NCBI GenBank assembly: GCA_019454145.1
Contig: CP075366.1
Span: forward strand, 2,149,564 to 2,213,563
Reading direction: 5' to 3'
Length of the DNA stretch: 64,000 bases
DNA from: Fimbriimonadaceae bacterium
GTDB taxonomy: Bacteria; Armatimonadota; Fimbriimonadia; Fimbriimonadales; Fimbriimonadaceae
Positions 57,614-63,627 of the stretch are shown here, one piece after another. The translations under genes were made by a program, and so were the position numbers. How positions within the stretch are numbered: position 1 is the first letter of the stretch; each line of letters opens with the position of its first letter. Under the pieces are notes generated by a model. It did no database searches. It saw only the letters and a program-made list of their open reading frames with translations, and was not told the DNA's origin.

Positions 57614-58741
57614 ATGGGAAGTGCATATACACCTGGGTTGACCGTCAGTGCGGACACCGTTGTTGAACGATTACGCCGATTGCCGATTAAAGGTGAAGTG
57701 CTCGTTTCCGTTGGCGATAAGGTTAATCACGATACTGTTATCGCCCGTGCTTTGCTTCCCGGCCCGCTCCAAAATATTCGCCTGACCGAGCGATTAGGTG
57801 TGGAACCTAAGGAAGCCCAAGACCTCTGCCATTTCAACGTAGGCGACCAAATCGAAGCTGGTCAAGTGGTTGCGGAAACCAAAGGCTTGTTCGGAAAATA
57901 CTTCAAGAACAAAATCACCAGCGACTACACAGGGGAAATCGAAAGTATTTCCACCGTCACTGGAAACGTGTTGGTTCGCGAAGCCGCGATTCCGGTTGAG
58001 ATGACCGCTTACATGGACGGCACAGTCATTGATGTAATGGTCGGCGAAGGCGCGACGATCCAAACTCGCGGGGCGATGGTTCAGGGCATCTTCGGAATCG
58101 GGGGCGAGCGCAACGGTCAGGTTCGAATCGCAGTTGATTCAGCGGATGAAGTGTTAGATGTTCAGCATATTTTGGAAACCGATGCAGGGAATATTTTGGT
58201 TGGCGGTGCTGGAATCACCGCAGGAGCATTAAAGAAAGTCAACGAACTCGGCGTAGTCGGGGTAGTTGTGGGTGCCGTTAAAGACGTAGATCTGACGGAG
58301 CTTTTGGGATACGAAATCGGGGTCGCCATCACAGGGCAAGAAGAGGTGACGACCACTCTGGTAGTAACAGAAGGTTTCGGAAAGTTAAGCATGGCAAAGA
58401 GAACATTCGAACTGTTGAAGAGCCTTTCGGGGCGAAGCGCCAGTTTGAATGGGGCGACACAGATTCGCGCTGGGGTTATTCGTCCCGAGCTGATTGCTCC
58501 CATCGAGCATGCGGCCGGTGATGTTGTCCCCGAGGGCAGCGGCAACGTTCTGGGTGTTGGCACTCCAATCCGTGTGATTCGAGAGCCTTACTTTGGTCAG
58601 TTGGGTGAAGTGACAGGTCTGCCTGCACAACTTCAAACGGTTGAATCCGGGGCGGAAGTCCGAGTTTTGGAAGCGAAACTCGACAGCGGCGAGGTGGTCT
58701 GTGTACCCCGCGCCAACGTTGAGATCATCGCCACATCATGA
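57614..58741 (+). CDS. Barrel-sandwich-hybrid protein, unknown, coupled to a response regulator
   Basis: About 375 residues, not assigned to a named family. The N-terminal half has three lipoyl/biotinyl-like barrel-sandwich pieces: KGEVLVSVGDKVNHDTVIA (about 26-44), NVGDQIEAGQVVAETKG, and GTVIDVMVGEGATIQTRGA. These resemble parts of RnfC-like and efflux-adaptor folds, but without a modified Lys motif. The middle has a Gly-rich GGAGITAGALKKV helix. The last ~60 residues look like a KOW/SH3-type barrel (YFGQLGEVTGLP). No signal peptide or helix is seen, so it is cytosolic. AGAGAAGAT precedes the ATG. The stop overlaps the response regulator start. Confidence 0.75.
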   Translation: MGSAYTPGLTVSADTVVERLRRLPIKGEVLVSVGDKVNHDTVIARALLPGPLQNIRLTERLGVEPKEAQDLCHFNVGDQIEAGQVVAETKGLFGKYFKNKITSDYTGEIESISTVTGNVLVREAAIPVEMTAYMDGTVIDVMVGEGATIQTRGAMVQGIFGIGGERNGQVRIAVDSADEVLDVQHILETDAGNILVGGAGITAGALKKVNELGVVGVVVGAVKDVDLTELLGYEIGVAITGQEEVTTTLVVTEGFGKLSMAKRTFELLKSLSGRSASLNGATQIRAGVIRPELIAPIEHAAGDVVPEGSGNVLGVGTPIRVIREPYFGQLGEVTGLPAQLQTVESGAEVRVLEAKLDSGEVVCVPRANVEIIATS

Positions 58742-59406
58742 AAATCCTACTCGTAGACGACGAAGAAACAATCCTTGAAACAGTAGAAAATAAACTCCGG
58801 AAGGAAGGGTACACGGTGTTTACCGCCGGTACCGCCGAGGAGGGGATGCGCCTTTACCGGCTCATCAAACCAGACATCCTGTTGCTGGACATCATGTTGC
58901 CTCAACGTTCGGGTGTAGACCTCGCCCGCGCCATCCGCAAAGATTCCACCGTGCCCGTGATCTTCCTCACTGCCAAAGCGGCGGAAGAAGACCGCGTGAA
59001 AGGCTTGGAAATTGCCGATGACTACATTGTCAAGCCGTTTTCTTTGGCTGAACTCGCGGCCCGGGTGAAATCGGTTCTTCGTCGTTCCACTGGCGATACT
59101 CCGGTTGAGGCGATTGAATCCGGCAATCTGCGAATTGACCCCCGCACTCATGAAGCTTGGCTGAACGATTCTCCTCTCACGCTTTCGCCCAAAGAATTTG
59201 CTCTGATCTACTTCTTGGTTCGTAACAAAGGGCAAGTTTTCAGCCGCGAGATTTTGCTCGATCGCGTTTGGGGCCAGGATGCGTACGTCAGTGCCCGCAC
59301 GGTGGACGTTCACGTTCGCTGGCTTCGCGAAAACGTAGAAGCCGAACCTAGCAATCCTCAGCGCATTATGACTGTGCGCGGTGTGGGTTATAAGTTCGTT
59401 GGCTGA
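58738..59406 (+). CDS. OmpR/PhoB-family response regulator, orphan
   Basis: A 222-residue two-domain regulator. The receiver has the acid pocket DDE at 7-9, phospho-acceptor Asp51 in LLLDIMLP, Thr in IFLTAK and Lys in VKPFSLAEL. The winged-helix domain has LTLSPKEFALIYFLVRNKGQVFSREILLDRVWG (in parts) and ends TVRGVGYKFVG. The usual GLELGADDY loop reads GLEIADDY, one residue short, before the conserved Lys. There is no histidine kinase next to it. It overlaps the barrel-sandwich gene by 4 bp and ends with a terminator. Confidence 0.95.
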   Translation: MKILLVDDEETILETVENKLRKEGYTVFTAGTAEEGMRLYRLIKPDILLLDIMLPQRSGVDLARAIRKDSTVPVIFLTAKAAEEDRVKGLEIADDYIVKPFSLAELAARVKSVLRRSTGDTPVEAIESGNLRIDPRTHEAWLNDSPLTLSPKEFALIYFLVRNKGQVFSREILLDRVWGQDAYVSARTVDVHVRWLRENVEAEPSNPQRIMTVRGVGYKFVG

Positions 59407-59428: not shown

Positions 59429-59474
59429 AATGCCCTACTTTTGGATGTCCAAAGGTAGGGCATTTTATTTTTTG
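59429..59474 (+). terminator. Intrinsic terminator after the response regulator
   Basis: A 16-bp stem with one G-T wobble (59429-59444 with 59449-59464) and loop ATGT, then TTTATTTTTTG. The following 59475-59630 is AT-rich and holds nothing I recognise. Confidence 0.92.
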
Positions 59475-59630
59475 CTTTGTTAACCCCATCCTTAATCCTT
59501 GCCCAAGTTCGTGAGGGAAATTTGAATAACCTATCCAAACCTTACTTGGAGAAATTTCAAATTGGGTGTCACGGATGGAGCCCATGTTAGTAAAATCGCA
59601 AGGATTTTTCGCCAGTGGGCTGTTAAAAAA

Positions 59631-60125
59631 TTAATTCCTTTCCGCACACTCACTTTGAAATTTATCAAAATTACGTTCGTATTCTTCTTTAGAGCCGATA
59701 TAACTACAAGAACGGCGAGGAAGATTAGTTCTCAGAATATCCCTGCCGTCGTAGACTGCTAGCTCATTCGGTTTCGGACTGTCAGGTGAATATCTGATTT
59801 CAATGTTATTCACAAAGTATCGATACTCGCGCCAAACATCCCTCCAAGAGAAATCCTTCATCCTTACGATGCCACTTGCAGGTACATCAATTACTATTTC
59901 ATGTTCCCCGACTACTACGGGTGGAGCATTTTTGTCTTCTTCAAAGATTAGCGTGCCACGGAAGTTACTTGGCATATTTATTCTTACAGGAACTCCAGTT
60001 ACTTTTGATCTTCTGTACCAGTCAACAGCGCAGGCGACTATCACGACCAGAACGATTAAACTAATGACCGCGACAATTAACCTTATCCTTTTGTCCGAAT
60101 CGGAAGCTGGATAGGGCTGATTCAT
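59631..60125 (-). CDS. Single-pass membrane protein, possible DUF6843-like domain
   Basis: A 164-residue protein with one N-terminal helix (about 15-37, RLIVAVISLIVLVVIVACAV) and an extracytoplasmic domain: MPSNFRGTLIFEEDKNAPP, then a strand-rich IVIDVPASGIVRMKDF. That layout weakly resembles DUF6843, which starts IPENY-x-G and has an IP-x-x-GIL turn. The domain continues YRYFVNNIEIRY and ends with a Cys pair region SCSYIG. It is 8 bp downstream of the small Acb2/Tad1-hairpin-like gene and probably shares its transcript. Local AT content is higher than in most of the window. Confidence 0.65.
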   Translation of the reverse strand: MNQPYPASDSDKRIRLIVAVISLIVLVVIVACAVDWYRRSKVTGVPVRINMPSNFRGTLIFEEDKNAPPVVVGEHEIVIDVPASGIVRMKDFSWRDVWREYRYFVNNIEIRYSPDSPKPNELAVYDGRDILRTNLPRRSCSYIGSKEEYERNFDKFQSECAERN

Positions 60126-60133
60126 CTCGAAGC

Positions 60134-60442
60134 CTACTCCGACTTATGTTTATCCCGCTTACCGATAAGACCTTGCATTTCGCGTCGGCGTCGGCGCAGA
60201 AGCAACGCTTCTCGGGCGAGGTCGAGGTGGTAGAGCGCGGTGGCGTTTTCTTCGCATGAAAGATCACGGCCTTGGAAATCGAGGAGCTTTTCAACAATCA
60301 CGTCGAGAACGTCTTCGATGCGGCAACCGTTGATTCCAACATCGGCCGGGTCGCCATGTTGAAACACAATCCGCATATATTCAGATTCGACAACCGCCAT
60401 ATTGCCGTCAAGGTGGCGGAATTTTTCCATGTTTTCGCTCAT
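60134..60442 (-). CDS. Small protein with Acb2/Tad1-hairpin-like domain
   Basis: A 102-residue protein. Residues about 25-95 match, by eye, the helical-hairpin domain (formerly a DUF) of Acb2/Tad1-type proteins: FQHGDP, VGINGCRIEDVLDVIVEKL, DFQ, then SCEENATALYHLDLAREALL and a run of arginines before QGLIG. The known phage-borne relatives show a G-V-N-G, F-Q, C-x-ENA-x-AL and R...RG-x-EG pattern; Acb2 and Tad1 bind cyclic nucleotide signals and block CBASS or Thoeris defence. GAGG 5 nt upstream of the ATG is a good Shine-Dalgarno. It is on a chromosome next to GH38 and a membrane protein, not in an obvious prophage. Confidence 0.6.
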   Translation of the reverse strand: MSENMEKFRHLDGNMAVVESEYMRIVFQHGDPADVGINGCRIEDVLDVIVEKLLDFQGRDLSCEENATALYHLDLAREALLLRRRRREMQGLIGKRDKHKSE

Positions 60443-60516: not shown

Positions 60517-63500
60517 TTATAAATCCACCGCTACCGTCAGAATTTCAAACGGCTTGTAGGGCAGTACCACCTGACCATCATGAATTTCTAGCTCGTTGAG
60601 CGGTTTCTCTTCCAAATCGCAAAGCCACGCCTGTTTCACGGGTAAAGCAAAACTGAGTTGAGCCGTGCCTCGACTGTTGTGACATTCGTAAAGCCTCACA
60701 ATGCGATGGCGCGATTTTTCGGATTTCTTAACTGCTTCTACGACAAGTGATCGGGAATCCGTTTGCACAAAAGCAGGAAGTTGTCCCGCTTCGCCGGATT
60801 GCTTTTTGAGCGGAACAACGTGGCATTCTGCATTCACCGCGTAAGCCGCCGCTACAACGTCGCTTTGTTGGGGGCTGTCGAAGTGCGGGAGCAGAACGTA
60901 GCTAAAGTAGTGCTCGCCCATGTCGCAGGTGGGGTCGGGAGCTTTTGGTGAACGGAGTAACGAAAGGCGCAGGTCGGAGCCGTTGATGTCGTGACCGTAT
61001 TTGCCAGTGTTGATGAGGGCAACTCCGTGACCGCCTTCGCTGAGGTCAACCCACTTTTGCGCGCAGACTTCGAATTTTGCCATATCCCAGGTTGTGTTGC
61101 GGTGAGTTGGGCGCTCCACGTGCCCGAACTGGATTTCACAAGTGGACTTGGTGGTATTCACATTGAGGGGGAACATCACCTTGAGGAACTTGTGGTCTTC
61201 GTGCCAATCCACCCAAGTATCGAACCGGATTCCCGGAGTTGGGCCGAGGCTGATGCGTTGACGGATCGTTGACTTTCCGAACTGTTTGACGAGCTCGACC
61301 GCTACTCGCACTGGCCCGCGTTCAACAACTTCAAACGAAACGCTTCGGGTTAGGTCAAGGGTGGTTTCGTGGGCGTAAAGCTCTGTATCCCATGCATCCC
61401 AGAAAAGCGGGCGGTCATCGAGGAGTTGGAAGAGGTTGCCAAGTTGGCCTGGTCGAATAAATTCCACCGGGTCGTCATCGAGGCTGGTTATTGACGTGAT
61501 GTTGCCGTGTTGATCAAACCGCACGACCCATTCGTCGTTTTCGAGCTTGCGGTTACTTGCTTTGAGCCGCTTTTCGGATTCTGGTTCTGAAGCACGGAAA
61601 TCTCCCAGCGCGACGGCTCCGCGAGCGGCAGCAGGAACTGGGAAAATGAGTCGTTCGCCATTCGCGTCTTCAATTAGCTGCACGGGAAGTGATTGATCCC
61701 CGCAATGGAGCGAATTCGGTGCTTTTCCGTTGATCACCGGCATAGTGCCTTGGCTCGATGCTTCGGCTTGATGGAAGATGGCAACTGGGCTTTGACACAT
61801 GGATGTATCAAATTGGCTACCGATATCGGAAAGCGCGGTTGTGATTACCTCTCTCGCTTCTGATTCTGCAGTTGCGTAGTCTTTCGCCGCCTCGTCGTAG
61901 ACTTCCTTTACTGAAGAACCAGGAATGATGTCGTGAAACTGGTTCAAAAGCACGATTTTCCAGGCATCTTCTAGTTTCTGCGACGGATAGCTGGCGGGGA
62001 ACTGAGGGTGGAAGCAACTCAGCAATTCTGCGTCGCGGAGCAGGAATTCGCAGGTTCGGTTTTTCTGCTTGCATAGGGCTTGGCTGGTATAGGTGCCTCG
62101 GTGGAATTCTAAATACAATTCACCGACCCAAGTCATTAAGTCTTCGGATTGCTCAATCGTTTGCAAAAAGAAGTCCTTCGCTTTGACCTTGCTTTCGATC
62201 ATGGGCAGGCAAGGGGCAAGCCGAGCGCGTTTGAGTCGTTCAATATGCCATTCGGTTGGGCCACCGCCTCCGTCCCCGAAGCCGAATAAGTAAAGCGATT
62301 GGTCGGATCGTGCGTGGTCGCGGTGGTTTTTTACACTTTGCGAAATCTGAGTGGGCGAACAATCCGCAACATAAGTATCCGCCGGTGGAAAGTGCGAAAA
62401 AATACGCGAACCATCTATCCCTTGCCACCAAAAGGTGTTATGCGGAATTTTGTTGGTCTGGTTCCAGCTCATTTTCTGGGTGAGGAACGCTTGGATATTG
62501 AATTTCTGCAGGATTTGCGGGAGTGCGGCGCAGTAACCAAACACGTCGGGTAGCCACATATCAACGGTTTCGACCCCGAGTTTTTCGCGGAAATACTGCT
62601 TGCCATAGAGGAATTGTCGAACCAGTGATTCGGCTCCTGTCAGGTTGCAGTCGGCTTCCACCCACATAGAGCCGACAACTTCCCAATTACCTGCTTTGAT
62701 GCCAGCTTTGACTCGTTCAAACAGGTCAGGATGTCGCTTTTCTAGCCATTCGTATTGCGATGCTTGGCTGTGAGCGTAAAGGTGGCCGGGATACCGCTCT
62801 GCCAATCCTAGCTGCACCGAGGTCGTGTGCGCCATTTTGAGTTTTGTGACATCAAGCGGCCATAACCAGGCTGTATCGAGGTGGGCATGGCCAACCGCGT
62901 AAACCGTGTGTTTGGATTCGCTACTGAGCGAGCCAAGCGCGTTTTTAATTAGGCGGCGGCAACGAGCAAAGGAGCGCCGATTTTCTTCTTGAAATTCATT
63001 ACAGACTTCGTTCAATGCACGGATGAGAGTCGCGTGAGCGGGATCTTCGGGCGGGATCGAATCGGCAAGGTTAAGGACAAATTCCGCATCGTAGAACAAA
63101 TCCATCCGCTCTTGATCGAGCAAAGCGACTTTGAATCCGTGGAAGGTTTCGGAAAGCTGGGTTCTTGGTTTTTCCGGGCGGTGTACGGTGGTTTCCCGGT
63201 TGTGCGCGTAAGTTTGAACCAAAAGGTCAATTTTTGATTCATTTGGGTCGAGCCGGAAGTATTCGTGACCGTGGTCAAGGCCACCCCGTTGGATGTTTTT
63301 GATCCAGATCGTGCCTTCTACAATGCTGCCAGTTTCCCATTTGACTTGCGGCTCGGCTCCGTAGACCAGCACGGGGACAAAACCTTCTGGAACTTCCGGA
63401 AGTTTGCCGCTGACTTTATACCAACCTTCTTGATAAGGTGGCCCCCAGATGAACCCCGGTTCAATTGCCTGCCAATCTTTGGCTTTTCGGGCGGCTTGGG

Positions 63501-63627
63501 CATCAGGATAGCTTGCAACGTTGATTTCGGTCGCGAGGGGAAGTGGATTGATGATCAGGAGTTCACGCAGGCGAAAGTCGATGAATTGTTGAATTCTGCG
63601 ACGAGTGACTGATGCGTGTTTTTCCAT
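60517..63627 (-). CDS. Alpha-mannosidase, GH38
   Basis: A 1036-residue GH38 enzyme. The N-terminal ~240 residues form a beta-sandwich region; the catalytic (beta/alpha)7 barrel begins AVGHAHLDTAWLWP with the zinc ligands H249 and D251 region (HAHLDTAW), and has VGSMWVEADCNLTGAES and LPDVFGYCAALPQI with nucleophile Asp361. Further zinc His are in FGFGDGGGGPT-like and HDIIPGSS segments. It has no signal peptide, so it likely acts in the cytosol on mannosides taken up from outside. TATACT lies 17 nt upstream of the ATG. No sugar-uptake genes are next to it. Confidence 0.95.
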   Translation of the reverse strand: MEKHASVTRRRIQQFIDFRLRELLIINPLPLATEINVASYPDAQAARKAKDWQAIEPGFIWGPPYQEGWYKVSGKLPEVPEGFVPVLVYGAEPQVKWETGSIVEGTIWIKNIQRGGLDHGHEYFRLDPNESKIDLLVQTYAHNRETTVHRPEKPRTQLSETFHGFKVALLDQERMDLFYDAEFVLNLADSIPPEDPAHATLIRALNEVCNEFQEENRRSFARCRRLIKNALGSLSSESKHTVYAVGHAHLDTAWLWPLDVTKLKMAHTTSVQLGLAERYPGHLYAHSQASQYEWLEKRHPDLFERVKAGIKAGNWEVVGSMWVEADCNLTGAESLVRQFLYGKQYFREKLGVETVDMWLPDVFGYCAALPQILQKFNIQAFLTQKMSWNQTNKIPHNTFWWQGIDGSRIFSHFPPADTYVADCSPTQISQSVKNHRDHARSDQSLYLFGFGDGGGGPTEWHIERLKRARLAPCLPMIESKVKAKDFFLQTIEQSEDLMTWVGELYLEFHRGTYTSQALCKQKNRTCEFLLRDAELLSCFHPQFPASYPSQKLEDAWKIVLLNQFHDIIPGSSVKEVYDEAAKDYATAESEAREVITTALSDIGSQFDTSMCQSPVAIFHQAEASSQGTMPVINGKAPNSLHCGDQSLPVQLIEDANGERLIFPVPAAARGAVALGDFRASEPESEKRLKASNRKLENDEWVVRFDQHGNITSITSLDDDPVEFIRPGQLGNLFQLLDDRPLFWDAWDTELYAHETTLDLTRSVSFEVVERGPVRVAVELVKQFGKSTIRQRISLGPTPGIRFDTWVDWHEDHKFLKVMFPLNVNTTKSTCEIQFGHVERPTHRNTTWDMAKFEVCAQKWVDLSEGGHGVALINTGKYGHDINGSDLRLSLLRSPKAPDPTCDMGEHYFSYVLLPHFDSPQQSDVVAAAYAVNAECHVVPLKKQSGEAGQLPAFVQTDSRSLVVEAVKKSEKSRHRIVRLYECHNSRGTAQLSFALPVKQAWLCDLEEKPLNELEIHDGQVVLPYKPFEILTVAVDL

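Follow-up and report, generated by a model that had tools for sequence, protein, structure and literature searches.

We identified a 102-aa protein on the chromosome of a Fimbriimonadaceae bacterium (complete genome, 2.76 Mb) that represents a bacterial branch of the Tad1 family, host-resident and reduced in length, and we favour, with modest confidence, the view that it is a candidate native buffer or receptor for a cyclic nucleotide. In existing descriptions, Tad1-type sponges serve phages as weapons against immunity based on nucleotides, and a literature search found no paper joining Tad1 with Armatimonadota. The existence of a conserved chromosomal Tad1-like gene suggests a native role of the fold that is undescribed in searchable papers. 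The gene (hereafter, copy A) lies in a 64,000-nucleotide stretch of DNA (hereafter, the window), which corresponds to bases 2149564–2213563 of the genome, together with the following features:

58738–59406, plus strand: OmpR-type response regulator, convergent, which marks the conserved copy A site in synteny comparisons
59429–59464, no strand: strong terminator-like hairpin between the response regulator and an inserted ORF
59631–60125, minus strand: 164-aa orphan ORF with one N-terminal hydrophobic segment and no Pfam or PHROG match
60134–60442, minus strand (read from 60442 to 60134): copy A, Tad1-like hairpin protein of 102 aa with an ATG start; core residues 20–98
60517–63627, minus strand: GH38 alpha-mannosidase of 1036 aa (Pfam PF01074, 1.1e-82), directly upstream of copy A

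A sequence-only reading of the window had listed a series of landmarks in this product (FQHGDP, VGINGC, DFQ, C-x-ENA-x-AL, an Arg-rich helix and QGLIG). All of them were found in the ORF (the helix as RRRRRE), for which that reading had named no coding strand. Its proposal of a likeness to the Acb2/Tad1 hairpin proteins held as membership of the superfamily, within the Tad1 branch, based on profile matches to solved Tad1 proteins and on Foldseek structure comparison.

Relationship to Tad1 in sequence and predicted structure

Judged by sequence comparison, the resemblance of copy A to Tad1 is far beyond chance. A single-sequence phmmer search of PDB chains matched copy A to CmTad1 (8kbb; E 3.3e-6), phiKZ gp184 (8y6v; E 5e-5), and CbTad1 (7uav; E 2.7e-3), with one unrelated chain at E <1 (0.22). 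The same three chains were recovered by a family profile built from 38 bacterial relatives at E 5.1e-14, 1.8e-10, and 1.6e-9, respectively. PHROG 2428, which is annotated as unknown function, matched both copy A (E 3.9e-14) and the SPG24 phage protein named Tad1 in GenBank (E 2.6e-48), although only the C-terminal 80 of its 131 profile positions match copy A. The SPG24 protein itself shares 36.5% identity with copy A over residues 25–98 (tblastn). Profile searches thus matched solved Tad1 proteins, but the Pfam model PF24729 (Acb2_Tad1_hairpin) was unmatched in copy A and its 37 relatives (38/38 members missed); the score of copy A falls under the curated cut-off of 27 bits, a value exceeded by two phage Tad1 controls (33–34 bits), so that copy A fails formal membership. 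The PF24729 model, with 58 positions, appears too narrow for the host-resident branch. Because it misses the whole bacterial Tad1-like branch, this branch would go unnoticed in routine annotation, and NCBIfam returned no model for either copy A or a phage Tad1 control.

The structure of copy A was predicted with AlphaFold2 using a 38-row alignment (pLDDT 83; >90 at residues 41–90, low confidence at residues 1–12). The predicted elements are short strands at residues 17–20 and 23–27 and a two-helix hairpin formed by residues 42–58 and 64–89, and the core fold of Tad1 (a beta strand leading into a two-helix hairpin) is present in this model. In Foldseek, the top 20 PDB matches were all Tad1 chains (probability 1.00; best match E 3.5e-5, TM 0.69), and the first non-Tad1 match followed at E 1.7. 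Using VIA-align, CbTad1 matched the model with Z 9.4 over 89 residues, whereas unrelated helical proteins start at 6.9. Matches in BFVD include proteins annotated as 'Acb2/Tad1 hairpin domain-containing'. The structural comparison, which recovered the Tad1 fold, gave a weak likeness to Acb2 (T4 Vs.4, 7uq2), a protein with a short N-terminal helix and two long helices: its helical hairpin aligned over 53 residues with a VIA-align Z of 5.5, a value that common helical arrangements also reach, and no sequence match between copy A and Acb2 was found.

Comparison with characterized proteins revealed both shared and missing elements. CmTad1 and CbTad1 (Thoeris anti-defence 1; PDB 8kbb–8kbh, 7uav, 7uaw, 8smd) share with copy A the sequence core (31% for CmTad1), the two-helix hairpin fold, and the EN and R-x-x-x-R signature, but they are phage-encoded proteins of about 125–132 aa, whereas copy A has 102 aa and is encoded on the host chromosome. 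In place of the four-strand N-terminal beta sheet of Tad1, two short strands are predicted in copy A, and its N-terminal region, modelled at low confidence, is about 20–40 residues shorter than in phage Tad1. With this shortening, the oligomer interface or a portion of the pocket may be altered. The phiKZ protein gp184, reported as a Tad1 (PMC12043709), has a C-terminal hairpin core in common with copy A but differs in being phage-encoded and in carrying a 150-residue N-terminal extension. Because copy A lacks the long beta region at the Tad1 N-terminus and scores below the PF24729 cut-off, we refer to it as a Tad1-related hairpin protein and not as a proven Tad1; it is also not a phage- or prophage-encoded counter-defence gene, as Tad1 proper would be.

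Distribution, descent and genomic setting

The Tad1-like family was found in 68 of 291 Armatimonadota genomes and is limited to two families (f1 and f5) of a single order, the Fimbriimonadales. Outside the nearest species, bacterial relatives are 40–84% identical to copy A, and viral matches reach only 27–42%. In the protein tree, a long branch (length 1.19; local support 0.998) separates all 60 distinct bacterial sequences from all 81 viral ones. Codon comparisons show strong purifying selection on the copy A family: copy A and its counterpart in the sister species differ by 21 synonymous and no non-synonymous changes (100% protein identity), and dN/dS ranges from 0 to 0.07 in the other pairs with a computable dS >0. 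A recently acquired prophage or mobile-element remnant would fit a family otherwise known mostly from phages, but such an origin of copy A is very improbable, contradicted by the separate bacterial clade, the purifying selection, sites shared across genera, and searches that returned no plasmid match and no close relative in IMG/VR. The single bacterial clade, the shared sites, and the lack of a plasmid match also bear out the non-phage chromosomal setting proposed from the letters alone, and 'domesticated Tad1-like protein' is a well-supported description, fitting one clade kept across a bacterial order; the gene may have passed from phage to host or the other way round.

Synteny common to several genera argues that most Tad1-like copies are long resident. 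Strict vertical descent was not supported by the tree, in which the deep branches are poorly resolved by a 102-residue protein, nor by comparison with RpoB: distances were correlated when all g1 species were kept (Mantel r 0.42; 20 of 5000 permutations as high), and this correlation was gone with one genome per genus (r 0.04). The missing correlation may reflect some exchange between genera or the poor resolution of so short a protein. A second, diverged copy (copy B) is present in seven of the eight searched genomes of the window genus. Copy B adjoins LeuB in the source genome, and its conserved FQHG...GxNG loop is longer than that of copy A by one inserted residue. It is constrained as well, with ratios of synonymous to non-synonymous changes of 15:1 and 25:7. 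The two copies may differ in ligand preference.

Tad1-like genes are located among housekeeping genes at clade-specific sites. Copy A lies behind the GH38 gene, as the sequence-only reading had stated; the two are 74 bp apart on the same strand, and GH38 occupies this upstream position in genera g1, g47, g5, g4, and g26. Because it is conserved next to copy A in one group of genera only, GH38 is probably not a functional partner. In another clade the neighbours are a small protein of 94–135 aa and LeuB; an M14-like carboxypeptidase is found upstream in four of five sampled f5 genera, and an M61-like protease directly downstream in eight of the 20 g20 and g29 loci that were sampled, as well as in g7 (both peptidase names come from reading the sequences, not from a family search). 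There was no universal operon partner across the sampled clades, the neighbours changing from clade to clade.

The closest neighbour of copy A had been interpreted in the sequence-only reading as a membrane effector paired with a nucleotide receptor. A single-pass-like ORF of 164 aa does lie 8 bp downstream on the same strand, but the pairing deserves hardly any weight, since it is contradicted by the absence of the ORF from the sister species, which has an identical Tad1-like protein, and from other genomes. The sister locus (L003) lacks about 670 bp at 59431–60125, the orphan ORF region between copy A and the response regulator. Among 61 genomes, the ORF was found in the source genome and, as a fragment match with 26% identity, in one of the other 60. 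Its GC content is 42%, compared to 52% for copy A and GH38. Based on these comparisons, the ORF is a recent low-GC insertion and not a conserved partner, and of the earlier 'domesticated sponge or receptor' the receptor with an adjoining membrane effector did not hold up.

Candidate pocket, ligand and rival explanations

Residue conservation was determined by aligning the 60 distinct sequences from bacteria with 81 distinct ones from viruses. Eight residues (G39, E43, C63, E65, N66, L80, R83, and R87) exceed 90% in both sets, with R83 at 100%/99% and R87 at 100%/100% (bacterial/viral); G39, E43, C63, E65, N66, R83, and R87 form a core signature common to the copy A family and its phage members. 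Five others (Q28, G30, G36, N38, and Q57) are invariant in bacteria and reach 77–81% in viruses. In the profile alignment, F56, N66, R83, and R87 of copy A correspond to F82, N92, R109, and R113 of CbTad1, which we take to be contacts for gcADPR or cyclic trinucleotides in Tad1 structures. Tad1 forms a hexamer that has two sites for trinucleotides in addition to six pockets for dinucleotides or gcADPR, and it sequesters gcADPR, cyclic dinucleotides, and trinucleotides (review, PMC12043709). Copy A would likewise oligomerize, probably as a hexamer, and R83/R87, N66, and the aromatic side chain at position 56 would line its pockets for anionic ligands. These pockets would bind a cyclic nucleotide that the bacterium itself produces, and the small soluble oligomer would either buffer this nucleotide inside the cell or report the ligand through protein contacts. 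The Tad1-like proteins of g20 and g29 (L075–L094) carry an additional tail at the C-terminus, R(T/S)ED...(E/D)FSATG(A/S), which is strongly conserved and absent from copy A; it may act as a signal for docking or degradation.

The source genome encodes one diadenylate cyclase (DAC) and about ten GGDEF domains; these synthases of c-di-AMP and c-di-GMP are candidate ligand sources. CBASS or Thoeris elsewhere in the genome, which the sequence-only reading had brought into play, found no counterpart there: no match was obtained with the SMODS CD-NTase, TIR_2, ThsB_TIR, or Cas10 palm models. Of 30 carriers of the Tad1-like gene, 12, including the source genome, were likewise devoid of detectable SMODS, TIR_2, ThsB_TIR, and strong Cas10 matches, and a role against resident CBASS or Thoeris in the source genome is therefore unlikely. 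The known Tad1 targets are also unlikely as the general ligand of the bacterial family, within the limits of a search with a few Pfam models that divergent CD-NTases or other synthases could escape. The signal would instead be a housekeeping or novel nucleotide, serving a purpose other than phage counter-defence. Strong Cas10 matches were concentrated in family f2, which is without a Tad1-like gene, and CD-NTases in carriers, with lineage as a confounder in either case.

The main rival to a buffer or receptor is that the fold was kept but a different ligand is bound, for example via the expanded Arg cluster 83–87. Nucleotide binding would then have changed or disappeared, the conserved residues would be structural, and the second helix, rich in Arg (LLLRRRRRE), would bind RNA, DNA, or protein. 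The additional arginines at 84–86 are indeed lineage-specific (0.68–0.82 in bacteria, compared to T/M/D in phages), the bacterial family has an invariant Q90 and H99 that lie outside the phage pattern, and the N-terminal beta region is shortened. However, a bare hairpin does not need N66 and R83/R87, which are nevertheless invariant in bacteria and nearly so in phages, and we regard this rival as unlikely. Less likely again is a domesticated sponge with which the cell would damp its own signals from CBASS, Thoeris, or type III CRISPR, or the signals of competing mobile elements. The ligands sequestered by Tad1 are in its favour, as is the frequency of SMODS CD-NTases, which occur in eight of 30 carriers and one of 31 non-carriers (p 0.012, confounded by lineage; 7/25 vs 0/12 within the family of the source genome, p 0.07). 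Set against this are the 12 carriers devoid of such markers, the lack of association between TIR families and carriage in the same genomes, and a negative association of Cas10, also lineage-confounded. An immunity component, in which a bound decoy or guarded sponge senses phage nucleotide chemistry, is improbable: Panoptes demonstrates that the interplay of sponge and nucleotide is usable for defence (PMC12657218), but no conserved effector adjoins the Tad1-like genes at the sampled loci, and single genes that are strongly conserved and sit at housekeeping sites do not resemble defence islands.

The preferred reading of copy A as a native buffer or receptor can be extended, more tentatively, to the Tad1 fold itself, which might be a native bacterial nucleotide-binding module that Fimbriimonadales keep in one or two copies for ordinary signalling and that shares a common ancestor with the phage sponges. 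If this is true, the fold has a host-side ancestral function undescribed so far. A constrained host clade in which many genomes lack the known targets would show either where the fold originated or that a sponge has become a component of the cell. With the candidate ligand residues intact in a small and soluble protein, a ligand screen might expose a novel nucleotide signal in Armatimonadota.

Tad1-like hairpins were also observed in diverse contexts among phages. The gp131 protein of the jumbo Burkholderia phage FLC9 (L130:727–1743, plus strand) is a fusion of a cyclophilin (PF00160, residues 3–162) with a Tad1-like hairpin, which occupies about residues 258–338 in the C-terminal part. Two further hairpin proteins, orf71 of Lactococcus phage 1706 (L137:1372–1725, plus strand) and A0A7R8MJE9 of Klebsiella phage Eowyn (BFVD), carry annotations as structural proteins. 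Since phiKZ gp184 is reported as an injected virion protein (PMC10449902), the three cases taken together suggest that sponges are often packaged in virions.
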